Assembly: GCF_000018365.1 (NCBI RefSeq)
Contig: NC_011529.1
Span: 558,001 to 622,000 of the forward strand
DNA from: Thermococcus onnurineus NA1
Lineage (GTDB): Archaea; Methanobacteriota_B; Thermococci; Thermococcales; Thermococcaceae
DNA length: 64,000 bases
Reading direction: 5' to 3'
Position numbers and translations under genes: made by a program. Positions 7,190 to 20,334 of the stretch are shown here, in pieces (the stretch's first letter is position 1; each line of letters begins with the position of its first letter). A model generated the notes under the pieces. The model was not told the origin of the DNA. It worked only from the letters and a program-made list of their open reading frames with translations, and did no database searches.

Positions 7190-7309
7190 TCCTCTCCCCT
7201 AATTTTCAATGTGTAACTCTCAACTAATACTCCAAGCAGAAGCCAGAATCTGCCAGAGCTCGAAAAGTTCTTATATTTCCGGGGACTAGAATATACCCGG
7301 GGCAGAAAC

Positions 7310-8014
7310 ATGGAGAGCGCAAGGATATCAACGGGCATTCCTGGTCTCGATGCGATGCTCAACGGTGGCCTAATCCCGGGAAGGACTTATCTAGTCAAGG
7401 GAGCTCCCGGAACTGGGAAAACAACGCTCGCGATGCACTTTGCTATGGCAGGCATTGCCAACGGGGAGAACGTTCTCTATGTGACCTTAGAGGAGCCAGC
7501 AGATAACCTCAGGGCGGACATGACCAAGATGGGATTTAACCTCCGCGATCCTAGGTTCACCCTGATAGACGCAACTCCTGCGGCTGAGAGATACGTTCTC
7601 GTGGACGACTTCTTTGAGTCCTTCGCTAAGAACATAGAGAGAATGACGGAGGCCATAAAGCAGCAGCTCCGCACGAGGCACTACACCCGAATAATTCTCG
7701 ATCCCATAACCATGCTCAAGCTGACAGCAACGAAGGAGATAGAGTACAGGAGGGCTTTCCTGGCCTTCATAAAGACGATGATGAGGATGAAAACGACCGT
7801 TCTGCTGACATCGGAGCTCCAGAGAACGGACATCGAGGAGTACCTTGTGAGTGGCGTGATAGAGCTGGAGGCCTTCGAAATCGACGGAAGGCTCTCCAGG
7901 GGCATCAAGATAACCAAATTTAGAGGGAGCGGCTTCGACGGAACCATCAGACCGTATGAAATTACTGACAGAGGGATAGTGATCTACAACGATCGCGTGG
8001 TTTCTTTACCCTGA
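7310..8014 (+). CDS. KaiC/RadA-like RecA-superfamily ATPase
   Basis: A single RecA-fold domain of 234 residues. The N-terminus ARISTGIPGLDAMLNGG and Walker A GAPGTGKTT are hallmarks of the archaeal KaiC-like (RAD55) group. Walker B is in TRIILDP. Further segments YVTLEEP and TSELQ are typical. Such single-domain proteins are abundant in Thermococcales and have no settled role; signalling is often suggested. The promoter is a TATA-like TTCTTATATTT at 7268-7278. The gene ends by overlapping the convergent helicase gene by nine bases. Confidence 0.85.
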   Translation: MESARISTGIPGLDAMLNGGLIPGRTYLVKGAPGTGKTTLAMHFAMAGIANGENVLYVTLEEPADNLRADMTKMGFNLRDPRFTLIDATPAAERYVLVDDFFESFAKNIERMTEAIKQQLRTRHYTRIILDPITMLKLTATKEIEYRRAFLAFIKTMMRMKTTVLLTSELQRTDIEEYLVSGVIELEAFEIDGRLSRGIKITKFRGSGFDGTIRPYEITDRGIVIYNDRVVSLP

Positions 8015-11000
8015 TGCTTCTATCATCGCCATTATCTTTCTGTGCAGCTGCTTGATGAGTTCCCTTCTGTCTTCCATCAGAACGACGTCGCTGGAACCTA
8101 TAACTTCGAGGTTGAAGGCGAATGGACTTGGCAGCTCGTTGTGCTCGATTACAACCCTAACTTTCCCATCGCGAACCCAGCTCAGGAACTGCTCCGCGCT
8201 CTCAACGTCCATTTTGTCCTCCATTATCTCGCGGTAGACCTCCTTCAGGAGCGGGAAGTCGGGGTAGTTCTCCTTGAGCACTTTGAGGAGAGCAACGGCC
8301 ATCATCTGCTGCCTGCCGAGCCTCTTGCTCCTCCCGATATAGCGCCTTAAAATGAGCAGTCCACGGTTGGCCACGTGTCTAAACCTTCTCTTCAGCAGTT
8401 CGGTATTGTCAAGGGCCTTTTTGAGAGTCCCCCTCAAATCCCCAATCTCGAAGAGCGCCCGTATTTCTTCCTCGTTCAACCTCTTCTCCGGCGGGAGGAG
8501 AAGGGCAAAGCCGTTGTCGTTTATCGCTATTCCAACGTTGCAGTTCTTCCACTGGCTGACTATGTAGGCAAAGGCTCTGCTTAAGGCATCGTTTGCTCGC
8601 CTGCCGATGAGCGTATGGAAGAAATAGCGGTTCCTCTTCTCACCAAGGACCTCTTCAACGAGAACCGTGCTGTCGTCCGGAATCACCGAATAGCGCGCCT
8701 GCTCGCGGAAGTAGGATAAAATTGCTCTCGCGGCGCGCTCGTCTATGCCGTATTTCTTCGTGAGAAGCGACTTTGCGCTCTCCTTGTCTAGAAGGTTCTT
8801 AACTTCCCTCCTAAACCTCTGAACGTCCAGGGCAAGGTCAAAGCTCAGCGGAAGCATCTCTGAGAACCAGGCAGGTATGGTTGGCTTCGCACCCTCGCGC
8901 GGGATAACGTAGATCTTGTTGCCCCTGCTCTTGATGAACTCGTAGGTCCTTCCGGCGAGAACGAAGATGTCTCCTGGCATGAGCCTCTCGGCGAACTCCT
9001 CTTCAACCGTCCCGATGAGCTTTTTGTCCATAGTGTAAACCTTTATCTTTGCCTCGTCAGGAATTGTCCCGACGTTCATGTAGTAGATGGCCCTCGTCAT
9101 CTTGCCGCGCCTGCCGAATTTTCCGTCCTCCAGCCATATCTTGGCATAGACCTTCTTCTCCTCGAGGCCGGCGTATTCTCCCGCCAGATACTTCAGCACG
9201 CTCATGAAGTCCTCGTAAGGCAGGTCGTGGAAGGGGTAAGCTCTTCTCACGAGCTTGTATGCCTCATCGACCTCCCAGACCTGGTTCAGTGCCATTCCGA
9301 GCAAATGCTGAACCAGAACATCGAGTGGATTCCTCGGAATTCTAACCCTGTTGAGCCTCCTGTTGCGGGCGTTGTGCGCCAAAACGGTAACCTCAACCAA
9401 ATCGTCCCTGTCGAGGGCCAAAATGATACCTTTGCTCACGTCGTGCAACCTGTGACCGGCCCTTCCAATCCTTTGCAATGCTCTATTGACGCTCTTTGGC
9501 GAACCGATGAGGATAACCAAATCTATTGTACCGATGTCAATTCCTAACTCCAGACTCGTTGAGCTGTTTTTTGAGACGAAACCATTTACCACGTAGTTGC
9601 CCGTTTCCGAGTTTAGAATCCCGTAGGCTTCCTTTATGAACACGGGTTCTATTGATTCTATCCTATCAAAGAAAACGTCCCCTTCCGCGAGCTCCTTCAG
9701 TCTCTGAATCTCGGCGAGTACATCAGACATTTCTCGCTCCTTTGCCACCATCTCATAGAAGTCGAGCAACCTTACCAAGTTTCTCCTGCTGATTTCCCTC
9801 GTGCCAAGTTCGACTTTCATGGGGTTGTAGATCCCCATCTTCTGGAGCCGGTAGGAGCTTATGCCCAGGGTCTCTCGTATCTCTCTAAGCTTTTTGCCGA
9901 GGTTTGGGATAACATCTCTGTTTGAGTAACCTGTGGATAAACCCTTTATTTTTCTCAAGTTTGGACGCCAAGGTTCTATCAGCTCCCCGAACGTCCTAAG
10001 GTAATCCCCTCCAAGAACAGCAACCGTGTAGCTGGTGCCTTTCTTGGGTACGGTCCTTCCCCTAAAGAACTGCTCTTCATCGTAATCCTGACTGCGGAGT
10101 GAGGAAACTATCCCAAGCTGGAGTAGCAGGTTGCGTATTCCCTCGGCGAACTCCGGATTAAATGTGACGAAGCCCGCAGAATATATCCGCCCTCCCTTAA
10201 CTTCGAGGTAGCCATCCCCATCAAAGTATCCTGAGAGAAACTGGATTTTATGCTTCATTGGAAGACGGTAGAGTATCTCTGGAAAAACTCCAAACTTCGA
10301 TTTTTTGTTTTTGCCGACAAGCCCGCTGAAAAGGTGAAGCAAGACGTTAAAGGATAGCTCCAAAGCGTAGGTGCTCTCGTTCTGCCTTCTAATGTGTCCA
10401 TCTATTCCGAATTCCTGCTTGGCGAGTTCTGCGTAGCGTTTGAGCATCTCCAGGTCGCCAGAGAACAGAGTTACCGTGCCCCCCTTCCACGAACCGTCAG
10501 CAAGCCAGAAACCGAGCAACCGCGCCATTCCCGGTGTGAACTTCTTGGATAGTTTATAGCTGTTCTTGTCGGAGGTTATCCTTTCCACGTCGTCTTCTTC
10601 TATGGTCATGTCAACTTCACTGAGAATCAGCTTTAATCTCTCCCAGCTGAAGGGGTACTCCCCCCGGAGTTGTTTCGATAAGTGACTCTCGCCCATGTTC
10701 CATCTTTTTGCGAAGGCCTTAATCGAGCCGAATTTGGCTTGAATATTCCTCTTTAGCTCCCTTAGGAATTCAGCCCGGAGATGCAGATAGGCAGAACCAG
10801 GAAGAACTTCAAAGATTGGCACTTCTTTCTCTGGACTCGGTAGTCTACGGAGAACTCCAACGTAATCACCCGGCTTGAGTTCTCCCGCCTCAACCCAAGT
10901 TAATCTTCCGTCTTTCACGGTGAGGAACTTGTGCCCGAGCGTTGCCTCGACTTCAAAGCCCAATCTCGTTCTGATTTTAACGCCCTTTGTGTTATATTCA

Positions 11001-12175
11001 ATCTTGTGGGTTCCATCAAACCCCACAAAACGACTCCTTGTTTCTTCGACTCCCACAATAGCCGTTTTTTCTCCAAGTCTATCAATTCTCCTTGTTCCTT
11101 CAGCAGTGAAAATCTTAGAATGGCCAGGAACGCAGACAACAGCCTTTAGCTCACCCCTCTTTAGCTTCTCCTCGACGTCCAGACGAACCTCTCGCGAAAG
11201 GCTTGAGTGGTGAGCCTCTATCAGCCCCTCAAACTCAGGATAGCGCTTCTTCAGGTTGAAGGCCACTCTCTCAGCACCGCTCCTAGTGTTGGTGAAGATT
11301 AGCGTCGTCCTGTGTTCCCTTATCAGCTCGGCCAGGCGTTTATAGAGGGCGTCGCTCAGGGTTCCAGCGTCAGTGTAAATCAAATCCTCGACGACGCTCT
11401 CAACCCATATTCTGGTCTCTTTGGCGAAGCTGACGTCAACTATTAGGCCAGGTCTCGGTTTGCCCTCATCATCGAAGCCGAAAACGAACTTGGCGACCTC
11501 CTCGAGGGGGTGAATTGTAGCGCTCAAGCCTATCCTGACGAATTCACTCTCGGCGAGATTTGCCAGGCGTTCAATGCTCAATGCTAGGTGAGAACCGCGC
11601 TTGTTCTCAGCCAGAGCGTGAACCTCATCGATGATGAGGTACTTTACAGTTCTCAGCCTCTCGCGGAACTTCGGCGCGTTGAGCGCTATGGCGAGGCTTT
11701 CTGGAGTGGTTATGAGTATGTGGGGTGGTTTTCTCACCATCTTGCTCTTCTCGTAGCTCGAGGTGTCGCTCGTCCTTATGCCGACCCTTATCTCCGGCAG
11801 CTCGTAGCCGAGCTCTTTTGCCACTTCCTTTATCTCCGCCAATGGTCCCTCAAGATTGCGCTTTATGTCGTTGTTGAGTGCTCTCAGCGGCGAGACGTAA
11901 AGAACGTAGATTTTATCATCCAGCTTCCCCTCCTTCCCCAAAAGAATAAGCTCATTTATTGCCGCGAGAAAAGCAGAGAGAGTCTTTCCAGAACCGGTCG
12001 GCGATGAGATGAGAACATTCTCTCCCTTGTGGATCTCAATAACCGCATATCGCTGGGGCGGAGTGAAGGTGCCGAACTTCCGCTTAAACCACTCCCTAAC
12101 CGGCTCGCTCAGTATCTCGAATATCTCCTCGTCCGCGTATTCTCTCTCGGCGTACCTTATCCTTTCCTCACTCAT
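8006..12175 (-). CDS. lhr: Lhr-type DEAD/DEAH helicase with in-frame intein
   Basis: Superfamily 2 helicase acting on DNA or RNA in repair or RNA metabolism. The N-extein has Walker A SPTGSGKT (residues 58-65), the DEVH box (183-186), SAT motif III and FTNTRSGAERVA. The C-extein continues with LELGIDIG, QRIGRAGHR and the long Lhr C-terminal core. Residues 348-870 are an intein; without it the protein is 866 residues, the usual size for archaeal Lhr. The start ATG at 12175 shares a 91-base divergent region with the small CxxC gene. Similarity suggests the aLhr group; which subtype cannot be told by eye. Confidence 0.93.
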   Translation of the reverse strand: MSEERIRYAEREYADEEIFEILSEPVREWFKRKFGTFTPPQRYAVIEIHKGENVLISSPTGSGKTLSAFLAAINELILLGKEGKLDDKIYVLYVSPLRALNNDIKRNLEGPLAEIKEVAKELGYELPEIRVGIRTSDTSSYEKSKMVRKPPHILITTPESLAIALNAPKFRERLRTVKYLIIDEVHALAENKRGSHLALSIERLANLAESEFVRIGLSATIHPLEEVAKFVFGFDDEGKPRPGLIVDVSFAKETRIWVESVVEDLIYTDAGTLSDALYKRLAELIREHRTTLIFTNTRSGAERVAFNLKKRYPEFEGLIEAHHSSLSREVRLDVEEKLKRGELKAVVCVPGHSKIFTAEGTRRIDRLGEKTAIVGVEETRSRFVGFDGTHKIEYNTKGVKIRTRLGFEVEATLGHKFLTVKDGRLTWVEAGELKPGDYVGVLRRLPSPEKEVPIFEVLPGSAYLHLRAEFLRELKRNIQAKFGSIKAFAKRWNMGESHLSKQLRGEYPFSWERLKLILSEVDMTIEEDDVERITSDKNSYKLSKKFTPGMARLLGFWLADGSWKGGTVTLFSGDLEMLKRYAELAKQEFGIDGHIRRQNESTYALELSFNVLLHLFSGLVGKNKKSKFGVFPEILYRLPMKHKIQFLSGYFDGDGYLEVKGGRIYSAGFVTFNPEFAEGIRNLLLQLGIVSSLRSQDYDEEQFFRGRTVPKKGTSYTVAVLGGDYLRTFGELIEPWRPNLRKIKGLSTGYSNRDVIPNLGKKLREIRETLGISSYRLQKMGIYNPMKVELGTREISRRNLVRLLDFYEMVAKEREMSDVLAEIQRLKELAEGDVFFDRIESIEPVFIKEAYGILNSETGNYVVNGFVSKNSSTSLELGIDIGTIDLVILIGSPKSVNRALQRIGRAGHRLHDVSKGIILALDRDDLVEVTVLAHNARNRRLNRVRIPRNPLDVLVQHLLGMALNQVWEVDEAYKLVRRAYPFHDLPYEDFMSVLKYLAGEYAGLEEKKVYAKIWLEDGKFGRRGKMTRAIYYMNVGTIPDEAKIKVYTMDKKLIGTVEEEFAERLMPGDIFVLAGRTYEFIKSRGNKIYVIPREGAKPTIPAWFSEMLPLSFDLALDVQRFRREVKNLLDKESAKSLLTKKYGIDERAARAILSYFREQARYSVIPDDSTVLVEEVLGEKRNRYFFHTLIGRRANDALSRAFAYIVSQWKNCNVGIAINDNGFALLLPPEKRLNEEEIRALFEIGDLRGTLKKALDNTELLKRRFRHVANRGLLILRRYIGRSKRLGRQQMMAVALLKVLKENYPDFPLLKEVYREIMEDKMDVESAEQFLSWVRDGKVRVVIEHNELPSPFAFNLEVIGSSDVVLMEDRRELIKQLHRKIMAMIEASG
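9566..11134 (-). other. Intein with LAGLIDADG homing endonuclease inside lhr
   Basis: Starts at Cys348 (CVPGHSKIF, block A) and ends in VVNGFVSKN at Asn870, followed by Ser as the +1 residue. Splicing would join LKAVV to SSTSLELGIDIG, rebuilding helicase motif V. The block B TxxH is in ATLGHKFL. Two LAGLIDADG-type motifs, LLGFWLADG and FLSGYFDGDG, indicate an intact homing endonuclease. Two helix-turn-helix-like segments (AFAKRWNMGESHLSKQL and LREIRETLGISSYRLQKM) flank or follow it and may contact DNA. The length of 523 residues is normal for a full intein. Similar insertion in Lhr is known in Pyrococcus and Thermococcus. Confidence 0.93.
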
Positions 12176-16469: not shown

Positions 16470-16546
16470 GGGCCCGTGGTCTAGATGGTTATGACGCCAC
16501 CCTTACAAGGTGGAGGTCCGGGGTTCGAATCCCCGCGGGCCCACCA
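16470..16546 (+). tRNA. tRNA-Val (anticodon TAC), CCA encoded
   Basis: The acceptor stem pairs GGGCCCG with CGGGCCC and is followed by A and an encoded CCA. The anticodon arm is CCACC, loop CTTACAA, GGTGG, giving anticodon TAC. The T arm contains GGTTCGAAT flanked by CCGG/CCCCG. No intron. A TATA-like TTTTATAAC lies about 30 bases upstream (16436-16443). A hairpin repeat begins five bases after the end, and the AT-rich accessory region starts here. Confidence 0.96.
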
Positions 16547-16827
16547 TAAGAAACTTTTGCCAAACAAAAGTTTGATCAAAGATTCTGTTGAACTGAAAAT
16601 TTTGAAAAAGCAGGGCTTATTGTTTAGTGAGACTTTCTTCTACACTTCTCGGAGGGTTAATTGCCCTTATCCCCGATAATTTGCCTGCTCAAAGTTTGAT
16701 CATATCGCCTCTAAACTCAATAGTTCTTATATCAGTTTCTCTGCAATTCTGTGCTTGTTGCTGGTACTCTATAAGTGCCAAGATAAAATGAAACTTAACT
16801 GTTTAAAGAATAGTAAAAATAGAGGTT
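16547..16827. other. AT-rich intergenic region after tRNA-Val
   Basis: 281 bases without a supported gene. It holds a nine-base-pair hairpin (16551-16573) with tail GATCAAAG, and a second copy of AAAGTTTGATCA at 16691-16702, 124 bases further on. Base composition shifts to AT-rich here and stays so through the following 741-residue gene. No second copy of the tRNA 3' end was found beyond that gene, so classical integrase attachment is not shown. Confidence 0.6.
16551..16581 (+). repeat. Hairpin repeat, copy 1
   Basis: AAACTTTTG (16551-16559) pairs perfectly with CAAAAGTTT (16565-16573) around CCAAA, followed by GATCAAAG. TTTGATCAAA within it is a ten-base palindrome. A related element lies on the minus strand at 57382-57424 with stem AAACTTTGC/GCAAAGTTT and tail CATCGAAAG. 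In both cases the stem starts within a few bases after the end of a gene. Confidence 0.6.
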
Positions 16828-19053
16828 TTATAATTCTCTCTCTACCCACTGTGGAGGGAATTCGGGAACATGCGCTCCAATCATCCGTTTGAGATCATCA
16901 ATTATCTGTTTTTCATATTCTATGAGAGTAGAAAGGTCTCCAGTTTCTATTGAATTATTAACTGCTTGTATAAATGCACTTGTTATACGTGGTCTCATAT
17001 TGCGAGCCCCGACTAGGTTTTTGTGCTCCCTAAATATTTTGAACAACTCCAGAATGAATTCTAATGTTATAATTCCCATCTCTATATCAGTGCCAAGATT
17101 AGATATTTCCTTTCTTGCTGGAAGATTAAGAGATTCCGTCTGTAGTTTTGAACTGCTAATAATAAACACACCCTTTTTTGTTATTCTGACATTACCCAAG
17201 TTCATTTTCTGGAGATATCCTTCGAGATATTCCCACATCTTCCGTATCTCGTCTCGCTCTAGGCGTTTGTGCTGTTTAGAATCAATGACATAAGTATGGA
17301 CTATTGGAGTATCCCTGTCCTCCACCCAGAGTATTAGTATCCCGTCAGGTTCAGCTTCATTATAGATATATCCTTTGGGAATGAAACTACCATAAAGATA
17401 TTTCAATACAATGCCCAGGTGTTCTTCAACTTTTTCTCCTGATAGTGTATCTAACTGGTTGCTTAATAAACGATAAGATACCGTAGCTTCATTTTCTATG
17501 AGTTCTGAATAGTAATAGTCTAAATACTCCAAAGTTTTGATATAAATCTCGAACACAGCATCCTCTTTATTGTTCTCTAATAAGCTTTTGAGGACTTTAT
17601 ATAGATCTAGGTTGTCTAAAAATACATACGTCAATCGTTGATATCTGCTTTTTTTAGTACTTTTTGCTTGGTTGCTTAATGGAATCACGATAGTTATGAA
17701 AAATTGATAGCTTCCACCTTTTGGATAATCCCACCGTCTGACTCCCTGGAGAACTATGGACTTGTCCTCTGTTTTATACTCTATATTAAAGATTTTAAAC
17801 TCCTCATTTATTCCAAAACTATTAGTGAATGAGAATGTTTTCCCTTTAACTTTGTGGAGCTCATTTTCTAGAAGTGTTCCAAATTTATCCGTTGATATCC
17901 GATAGGACTTTTTGGTTTTTGATATAATCTTCTGTTCTTTAAGCTTGTTGAGAACGATATCATCACTGGATAATTTTTCTAAGATCTTGTAATATCTTAC
18001 CCTATTCTGCTTGTCAAGGATCATTTTATTAAAGTAGTACGAGACTGGAGCTTCGTAAGGACTATTTAATTTTATCCCACTTCTTTCCAGTATTCCAATG
18101 ATTTTTTTCTTGTCACTCTCTGGAACATCATGCTCAAATGATATCTTTATTTCAAAGATGTATTTTCTTTGATTAGTCTTCTCGTCAAGGCCCTCTATTT
18201 TCGCTTTTGATCTCACGAGAGTCAAAGTGAACAAAATTGGAGATTCTTTTTGCCGATATTCTAAATGAACTTCTCTTAACTTCAAAATATCCTCAGGATT
18301 ATGTAATAATTTGTCAATATTAAACCGGGTAATAGGTACATACATGTCACTCCATGCATTTATTTTCACAGTGTAGGGATATCCTGAAAGTTTTATTTTA
18401 GTCACATATATGCCTTCATTACTCAACTTCTCAAAGATCTCTGCGGGAGAGTTATTAAAAACCTCAGCTTCATTGATAATTTTTGTGATATCCTGTGCAA
18501 AGTGTTTATATGCTCTTGTAATTGTTCGCCTTGTCGCTGCGATTTCTACATTATTCATTTTTTGGCGTATTAAGATCAATGGATAGTATCGCCTTTCCTT
18601 GGAAACTAATGGCTGAATATATTTTCTTTCGACAGTTTCAAGAGGATAAAATATCAAGTTTTCATTTTCTTGCATGCCTTTGAGAATTATGGCATTTTGG
18701 CTTTTTTCTGTAATTTTCTTGAGAAATTCTTCAGGATTCTCTCCAGTAATTTTATACGTTTCTTTGGGAAGGGCTTCAAATTCTAGTTCAAATCGAATTC
18801 TCAATAAGGTAGAGATTATTTTTTCTTTATCATACATTTCTAAGGAAATATCTCCTACTTTATCCTTTCCATACACTAGTCTAGCCAGTTCAATTAACTT
18901 CTTTAGGAATGTTTTTTCATCATTTTCCTGTGTTAGGTTAACAAGATCTTCTTCGGCAATTCCTGTAACTGGTCTTCCAAGGTAATCCGTAAATAAAATG
19001 CTAACAATTTCCTCCCTCTTAAGAGTCTCAACACTCGTAGCCATATCTACCAT
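16828..19053 (-). CDS. Large accessory protein with FokI-like PD-(D/E)xK nuclease C-terminus
   Basis: 741 residues, not recognised as a whole. Residues 1-500 show no familiar motif; they are rich in Lys, Glu and Ile, with mixed alpha/beta character and no membrane segment. The C-terminal 200 residues carry EPDGILIL (D570), a spacer, then VIDSK (D591, K593), the order PD...DxK of the FokI cleavage domain. A candidate helix glutamate lies near E543/E544 and a strand GVFIISSS follows, again as in FokI. Codon use is AT-rich, unlike the neighbours, which suggests transfer. It stands alone: no methylase or helicase is adjacent. ATG 19053 follows GGTGAT; ATG 19065 is an alternative. A restriction or defence nuclease is inferred. 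Confidence 0.75.
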   Translation of the reverse strand: MVDMATSVETLKREEIVSILFTDYLGRPVTGIAEEDLVNLTQENDEKTFLKKLIELARLVYGKDKVGDISLEMYDKEKIISTLLRIRFELEFEALPKETYKITGENPEEFLKKITEKSQNAIILKGMQENENLIFYPLETVERKYIQPLVSKERRYYPLILIRQKMNNVEIAATRRTITRAYKHFAQDITKIINEAEVFNNSPAEIFEKLSNEGIYVTKIKLSGYPYTVKINAWSDMYVPITRFNIDKLLHNPEDILKLREVHLEYRQKESPILFTLTLVRSKAKIEGLDEKTNQRKYIFEIKISFEHDVPESDKKKIIGILERSGIKLNSPYEAPVSYYFNKMILDKQNRVRYYKILEKLSSDDIVLNKLKEQKIISKTKKSYRISTDKFGTLLENELHKVKGKTFSFTNSFGINEEFKIFNIEYKTEDKSIVLQGVRRWDYPKGGSYQFFITIVIPLSNQAKSTKKSRYQRLTYVFLDNLDLYKVLKSLLENNKEDAVFEIYIKTLEYLDYYYSELIENEATVSYRLLSNQLDTLSGEKVEEHLGIVLKYLYGSFIPKGYIYNEAEPDGILILWVEDRDTPIVHTYVIDSKQHKRLERDEIRKMWEYLEGYLQKMNLGNVRITKKGVFIISSSKLQTESLNLPARKEISNLGTDIEMGIITLEFILELFKIFREHKNLVGARNMRPRITSAFIQAVNNSIETGDLSTLIEYEKQIIDDLKRMIGAHVPEFPPQWVEREL

Positions 19054-19167
19054 AGATATCACCATGCTTAATTTAATTTTTAATAAATTTCGTAATTGAA
19101 GAATTTAAAATTTTTCATGAGGAGGCACTATATTTGATCTTCTCCGTATTTGATGTATCTGGCATCT

Positions 19168-20334
19168 CTAAGTCGCCCTCTTCTCTTCCTCCGGGAACTT
19201 CCAGTTCTTCGTTATTTTCGTCACGTTGCGGACGAGGGCCTTCTCCTGTAGGTTCTTCTCGACGAGCTTTTCGAGGAATGAAATCAGCTCGTCGTAGGTG
19301 CCGCGCTCGACCGGGAATGGCACCCTGTCTTTGCCACCCACGGCATAGGTGAACTTGAAGGGATCTGGCGGGTGCGTTACAGGGTCCTTCCACGACGGGT
19401 GGACGTCGTAGACGAGCTCCAGAACGAGCGATAGAGCCCTCAGCGTGCTCGGGCCGAGGCCCTTCAGGAGGAGAAGCTCTTCGTAGTTATTCACACTCAG
19501 CTCGCGGGCAAACTCAAGGGCTCTTCTGTTCAGCTCCAGCTTGCCTAGGCTTTCGTACTTCTGAATAAGGGTCTTCTCATCCACATCGCGGGGCTTGTAA
19601 TAAACCAGCGGTCGGTAGCCCCTCGCTATGGCCTTGAGGCTCTCAAGCTCGCGCTCTATCTTCACGGGCTTTTCCTGGATGATATCGAGGAGCGTCTTCT
19701 GATATTTCCTGGCCTCGTTCGAGACAGTGTTCAGCGCAAACTCCCTCTTTAAACCTGCAATCCCCTTGTGGGGGTCGAGTGTGAAAACCTCTGCATCAAA
19801 CCAGTGGAAGCGCCTCGCCATCCTCTCGGCCTCGTTCATACCCTGCTGTATCACTGCCCAGTTGCCCTCTTCGTCCAGGAAGAAGACGTGGTGGTACAGC
19901 TGATAGCCAGTCTGGAGGGCAACGGTGTCGACCTTTGCCACAAGCCTGGACGTTCTGACGTATGGAGTCGGGTCGAGGTCGTAGATCTCGGCTATGGTTT
20001 TCAGTTCCTCCGGTGTTGCCCTGCTCTTCTTGCCCTTTCCGCCAGCGGCCTTAACGCCCAGCTCCTCCCGCCAGAGGGCGTCCTTTATCATCCCAGCCGT
20101 TACCGTAGTACTCCCAGATGAGTCCCAGTCCATGCCGATGACGTTGTTGAAGGCCTGAAACCACACCGGGTCTGAGAGCCTCTCCAAGAGACCTTTAGTC
20201 CCGTACTCCTCGACGGCGAGAATCAGGACTAAGCGCGTCAGCTTCCTCATCCTCTGGGCGAGCCATGGCGGAACGTGGCCGCCGTGGAGGGGTAAATCAG
20301 CGACGTTCCTCATCAGGGTTATATCATCACTCAA
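19168..20334 (-). CDS. DUF763 family protein
   Basis: A 388-residue soluble protein whose N-terminus (VADLPLHGGHVPPWLAQRM) and central GMDWDSSGSTTVTAGMIK are diagnostic of DUF763, an archaeal and bacterial family without an established function. Near residues 290-310, LLLLKGLGPSTLRALSLV looks like a helix-hairpin-helix, a nucleic-acid-binding element. Basic stretches (GGKGKKSR) support contact with nucleic acid. The C-terminus is charged. It is divergent from the SerK gene, and the AT-rich accessory region begins about 100 bases after its stop. Confidence 0.85.
   Translation of the reverse strand: MSDDITLMRNVADLPLHGGHVPPWLAQRMRKLTRLVLILAVEEYGTKGLLERLSDPVWFQAFNNVIGMDWDSSGSTTVTAGMIKDALWREELGVKAAGGKGKKSRATPEELKTIAEIYDLDPTPYVRTSRLVAKVDTVALQTGYQLYHHVFFLDEEGNWAVIQQGMNEAERMARRFHWFDAEVFTLDPHKGIAGLKREFALNTVSNEARKYQKTLLDIIQEKPVKIERELESLKAIARGYRPLVYYKPRDVDEKTLIQKYESLGKLELNRRALEFARELSVNNYEELLLLKGLGPSTLRALSLVLELVYDVHPSWKDPVTHPPDPFKFTYAVGGKDRVPFPVERGTYDELISFLEKLVEKNLQEKALVRNVTKITKNWKFPEEEKRAT

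Follow-up and report, generated by a model that had tools for sequence, protein, structure and literature searches.

Several genes embedded in type I restriction-modification (R-M) operons have been described, namely PrrC, the RLO genes and TgvAB (PMC3710099, PMC2610378, PMC11411939). PrrC is under the control of its own R-M enzyme (PMC3710099). RloC is mostly unlinked to R-M genes and is sometimes found in hosts with no suitable R-M system (PMC2610378); TgvAB of Vibrio cholerae protects Escherichia coli against T-even-type phages in the absence of hsd genes (PMC11411939).

We analysed a gene, designated P0001, from Thermococcus onnurineus NA1. All positions refer, if not stated otherwise, to the window, i.e. 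the whole analysed stretch of 64 000 nt (positions 558 001 to 622 000 of NC_011529.1). The family to which P0001 belongs is undescribed in the libraries that we searched; the type of arrangement in which its relative was found, that of R-M cargo, is already known.

The orphan gene, its site and its host

P0001 is a single intact open reading frame of 741 codons (Table 1). Its GC content is 34.4% (GC3 of 32.5%) versus 51.8% in the remaining window; judged by composition, the gene is apparently of foreign origin. The start was placed at the ATG at 19053, for which the sequence GGTGAT, four bases upstream, fits a Shine-Dalgarno sequence; an alternative in-frame ATG at 19065 would add four amino acids. 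A preliminary description of this DNA had reported a 741-residue gene of foreign composition between tRNA-Val and a DUF763 gene, and the intact frame, the low GC content and the identification of both flanks bear this out.

Table 1. Coordinates of P0001, its predicted parts and its flanks in the window
Feature	Position	Strand	Evidence
tRNA-Val(TAC), flank, outside the system	16470..16546	+	tRNA identified
Non-homologous interval housing P0001, tRNA-Val to DUF763	16579..19166		DNA comparison with genome G031
P0001, candidate defence nuclease, orphan copy	16828..19053	-	Intact ORF; 34.4% GC; 51% identical full-length relative in genome G057
C-terminal domain, residues 494-741, predicted PD-(D/E)xK nuclease	16831..17574	-	58% identical to relative; AlphaFold model
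Predicted catalytic motif P569-D570 ... D591-S-K593	17275..17349	-	Invariant in both members; flanked-motif statistics
Central region of high conservation, residues 201-350, possibly for recognition or sensing	18004..18453	-	62-70% identity to relative
GGTGAT, Shine-Dalgarno-like, for ATG 19053	19058..19063	-	Direct sequence reading
DUF763 gene, flank, outside the system	19168..20334	-	PF05559, E=6e-123

In a comparison with the corresponding locus of a related genome (G031, locus L021) DNA homology ends at 16578 and restarts at 19167. DUF763 lies close to tRNA-Val in G031 as well; there, an ARMT1-like gene (PF01937, E=2e-72) occupies the interval in place of P0001, and the interval thus varies between species. 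We considered two histories of the site. Loss of the ARMT1-like gene from the host is not indicated, as another ARMT1-like copy, 57% identical to that of G031, persists elsewhere in the host genome, and either state of the interval could be ancestral. Neither is tRNA-directed integration into an empty site, as no integrase gene lies beside P0001 and the interval in G031 is filled by another gene. No further defence genes adjoining P0001 were noticed within the window. Elsewhere in the window (8006-12175, minus strand) an Lhr-type helicase gene (DEAD, WH_Lhr, DEAD_assoc) is split by a LAGLIDADG-domain intein.

The host genome (1.85 Mb, one contig) was found to contain neither HsdM (at E<=1e-30) nor Methylase_S, the HsdS domain. 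Its N6_Mtase matches are a type II pair of AccI/Eco57I type and one weak match; its HSDR_N match, a protein of 320 aa, is no HsdR subunit. The earlier statement that no methylase is nearby holds in the window; the type II pair lies elsewhere. This pair, an AccI-type restriction enzyme and an Eco57I-type methylase (L018:5549-8359, about 1255548-1258358 of the chromosome), is located near a recombinase-like gene. The genome search with HSDR_N matched the 320-aa protein (L017:4912-5874, above cut-off) and, in G057, a 297-aa protein (L016:14649-15542); the two genes share a type of neighbour and look like a conserved stand-alone nuclease-like gene. As the host has neither HsdM nor HsdS, P0001, if active, must work without a type I system of its own; independent action is favoured for the same reason, and P0001 would presumably act without HsdM, HsdS and HsdR alike.

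A relative in the cargo slot of a type I operon

When P0001 was searched whole and in pieces, none of the libraries Pfam, NCBIfam, PADLOC and PHROGs gave a usable match. No relative was found by tblastn in plasmids and phages, or in species genomes and viral contigs by a pattern scan, which detects close relatives only. Among 94 Thermococcaceae genomes we observed one full-length relative, a protein of 762 aa with 51% identity, encoded on C9, a contig of G057; when 115 genomes of the phylum were searched with a profile, no further one came to light. A match in another genome (G084, E=0.004) contains in-frame stops and was attributed to chance. The family is known, then, from two members only, a thin basis on which all conservation figures given here rest.

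The relative (C9, 8874-11162) is situated on the same strand between hsdM (7232-8791) and hsdS (11244 to the contig end), so that inspection of the neighbourhood of homologues, suggested in the preliminary description, has placed the sole relative found in a type I R-M operon; P0001 itself is outside any hsd operon. The hsdM gene was confirmed (N6_Mtase, E=3e-116; HsdM_N, E=3e-17), while the partial HsdS matched Methylase_S with E=7e-4 and 20.3 bits, just below the 22-bit cut-off. The GC content of the relative is 32.8% versus 50.8% in the adjoining hsdM, and the AT-rich region upstream of the gene and the ribosome-binding site seem to be its own. Contig C70 of the same genome carries a further type I operon, made up of a partial hsdM, a different AT-rich gene, hsdS and hsdR; the slot gene of this operon reads PIN-like by eye, though it had no PIN match in Pfam.

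In 29 further Thermococcaceae loci located with N6_Mtase, we examined which gene follows hsdM, taking longer stretches for 20 operons. About two thirds of the roughly 30 loci bear variable, mostly AT-rich cargo between hsdM and hsdS. PIN genes (PF01850/PF10130 above cut-off) occupy the slot in six loci (L080, L082, L084, L086, L089 and L090), a Fic gene in L062 (PADLOC SoFic, E=2e-60) and Kiwa genes in L093 (KwaA, PADLOC E=2e-18; KwaB, PF16162 with 28.9 bits at a cut-off of 26.3). The slots of L078 and L079 hold HEPN-like (DUF4145) proteins with sub-threshold matches, several others hold proteins without a family, and in L070-L077, which have other hsdM types, hsdS follows hsdM directly with no cargo. 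Most of the cargo has 31-41% GC, with certain PIN genes reaching 47%; the hsdR genes of these loci have mostly about 50% GC, in some 36-43%. No other slot cargo could be recognized by hmmsearch or hhalign as a distant relative of P0001.

The hsdM-hsdS gap is, in these operons, a slot for changing defence cargo. As it elsewhere holds varied known or likely defence genes, the position of the relative is that of defence cargo, and the proposal of a defence role for P0001 is strengthened because its sole relative is type I cargo in just such a slot.

Some further proteins of these loci were noted. A 595-aa protein with 31% GC (L087:1244-3031) has the C-terminal sequence DPDIDIAIL...GISVKNG, perhaps a PD-(D/E)xK motif; it does not match the stricter flanked pattern described below. 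Large proteins of 552-619 aa with C-termini that look alike are encoded at L079:2595-4271, L088:2075-3781, L095:7775-9433 and L080:2361-4220; those of L079 and L088 are clearly similar by eye, and no Pfam matches were obtained where searched. Between hsdS and hsdR, two loci (L093:5504-7369 and L097:5690-7558) encode a protein that appears DUF262/GmrS-like by eye (LPQFQRDFVW), in the position reported for RloF. Among the slot genes that remain without a family, new archaeal defence systems may well be found.

Predicted nuclease and N-terminal parts

The preliminary description had pointed to a PD (D570) and a VIDSK (D591, K593) near the C-terminus of P0001. Both are present, in the sequence PDGILIL...HTYVIDSK, and the sole relative retains D570, D591 and K593 unchanged, within a motif block that is 72-74% identical between the two members. 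Taken bare, a PD...(D/E)xK motif is weak evidence because 28% of shuffled P0001 sequences carry PD-x(8-30)-[DE]xK. Hydrophobic strands flanking the motif are typical of the PD-(D/E)xK superfamily, to which HsdR subunits belong; once hydrophobic residues were also required behind PD and ahead of (D/E)xK, the pattern arose in 33 of 20 000 shuffles. When 416 ORFs of at least 100 aa from the window, L018 and 20 slot loci were scanned, this flanked motif was found in P0001 and 13 others, apparently HsdR subunits to judge from their length and sequence.

An AlphaFold model of residues 494-741, made from the two sequences, is of low confidence (pTM 0.63, pLDDT 57); its order of elements, helix-strand-strand-helix-strand-strand-helix and further helices, with one strand after PD (571-578) and another before D591 (583-590), is compatible with the alpha-beta-beta-beta-alpha-beta core of PD-(D/E)xK nucleases, while fold searches returned no match with E<0.001. 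Motif statistics, conservation and the predicted succession of secondary-structure elements together support the assignment of residues 494-741 as a putative PD-(D/E)xK nuclease.

The likeness to FokI claimed in the preliminary description fared less well. The FokI model PF09254 had no match at E<=10 in the host genome or in G057, and hhalign gave P0001 and FokI a probability of 0.3%. In pairwise local alignments with FokI, with the motifs out of register, the score of P0001 was equalled or exceeded by 38 of 2000 shuffles and that of the relative by 1033 of 2000. What does agree is the order of helices and strands and a weak fold match: among the 50 matches listed for the C-terminal model, the nickase N.BspD6I, which we take to carry a FokI-like cleavage domain, had the top query TM-score (0.37, with E=1.8). 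These two observations are suggestive of a kinship with FokI. The top hits of the same model, APOBEC3 proteins (E of about 0.1, TM of about 0.2), were regarded as noise, and fold matches of the full-length model (pLDDT 51) as meaningless. A viral fold library yielded nothing for the C-terminal model, and PDB sequences searched with protein and profile queries yielded noise only.

The best-conserved blocks of P0001, as far as two members can tell, are residues 201-350 and 551-650. The former are 62-70% identical to the relative versus just 28-38% in residues 1-200. Pfam gave no meaningful match for either N-terminal piece, and Pfam searches of P0001 detected no known modified-base reader (SRA, EVE, GmrS), no known DNA-binding domain and no ABC-ATPase or HEPN (R...H) domain. 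We infer that the N-terminus may sense a signal or bind DNA.

Possible functions and known systems

The proposed defence role of P0001 is well supported by the genomic context of its relative. The reading we prefer, and hold with moderate confidence, is that P0001 is an acquired antiviral or anti-plasmid effector nuclease of an R-M-cargo family, with a C-terminal PD-(D/E)xK DNase and an N-terminal recognition part. The gene would have been gained horizontally, the present copy lying at a chromosomal site without R-M genes. The N-terminal part of roughly 490 residues, chiefly residues 201-350, would recognize an invader or a signal of infection and then release the nuclease; DNA would be cut by the C-terminal roughly 250 residues, in which helices and strands probably follow one another as in FokI, with D570, D591 and K593 in the active site. 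Given that the relative is linked to R-M genes, such a nuclease could form a second layer of defence. The single-gene defence nuclease of the preliminary description has thus gained from the cargo position of the relative and from a host without HsdM and HsdS, while its attributes 'modification-dependent' and 'abortive' remain proposals. A bolder version is tentative: P0001 may represent a new single-gene defence family of hyperthermophilic archaea, standalone or as type I cargo, in which a novel recognition domain (about residues 1-490, core 201-350) senses an undescribed feature of viral infection and is joined to a FokI-like PD-(D/E)xK nuclease. In either version the predicted active site is open to testing and the N-terminal part probably holds the recognition; a heat-stable nuclease would also have practical interest.

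We think it unlikely that P0001 is a stand-alone restriction enzyme, either of type IV, cleaving modified DNA, or similar to type IIS with built-in recognition. A big N-terminus with a C-terminal nuclease is the layout of FokI, no methylase lies beside P0001, and the type IV system TgvAB occurs within a type I operon (PMC11411939); however, neither a modified-base-binding domain nor a known DNA-binding one was detected, and a methylation-sensitive enzyme of the IIS kind without a methylase would cleave its own host.

The location of the relative between hsdM and hsdS, inside an hsd locus like PrrC, could also indicate a guard of the R-M system, silent on the type I complex and harming the cell upon inhibition of the complex by a virus; PrrC is indeed kept silent by its R-M enzyme, and an anti-restriction peptide activates it (PMC3710099, PMC12707154). 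Yet a toxic nuclease left unguarded in a host without HsdM and HsdS would need another silencer, and the relative seemingly has an upstream region and a ribosome-binding site of its own, which makes a guard rather improbable.

Presence of the family in two of 94 genomes and the variability of the tRNA-Val/DUF763 interval would fit a decaying or selfish remnant, a foreign gene now functionless; given 741 codons free of stops, a ribosome-binding site and the retention of all three motif residues between proteins that are 51% identical, there is little chance of this. That P0001 is not a nuclease at all, with PD...DSK arisen by chance in a protein of different function, is very improbable: the frequency of the bare motif in shuffles and the insignificance of all fold matches would allow it, but the flanked motif is rare in shuffles and its other carriers among the 416 ORFs are apparently all HsdR subunits, its block is among the best conserved, and the model places helices and strands in a suitable order.

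The preferred reading, that of an effector nuclease from R-M cargo, can be set against the described systems. PrrC (EcoprrI, type Ic hsd locus) is, like the G057 relative, an effector encoded within a type I locus, with a C-terminal nuclease behind a regulatory N-terminus, both of which are predicted for P0001; it differs in being an ABC-ATPase with a HEPN RNase, neither detected in P0001, which has a PD-(D/E)xK motif and itself lies outside any R-M locus. The RLO genes of Campylobacter jejuni are cargo of hsd loci too, and RloC also occurs away from R-M genes; their protein families are unlike that of P0001. TgvAB, from VPI-2 of V. cholerae, is embedded in a type I operon as is the G057 relative, but it comprises two proteins of the GmrSD family as opposed to a single protein with no such domain detected. 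The N-terminal nuclease of HsdR (PF04313) has the pattern PDhhh...hhh(D/E)xK in common with P0001, which shows neither a helicase nor an HsdR match. P0001 differs from FokI and N.BspD6I in lacking a significant sequence or profile match, the fold match being weak; what it shares with them is a putative nuclease at the C-terminus and a similarly spaced PD ... (D/E)xK, and, with FokI, a late strand followed by a helix, with TLEE in FokI and TLEF in P0001.
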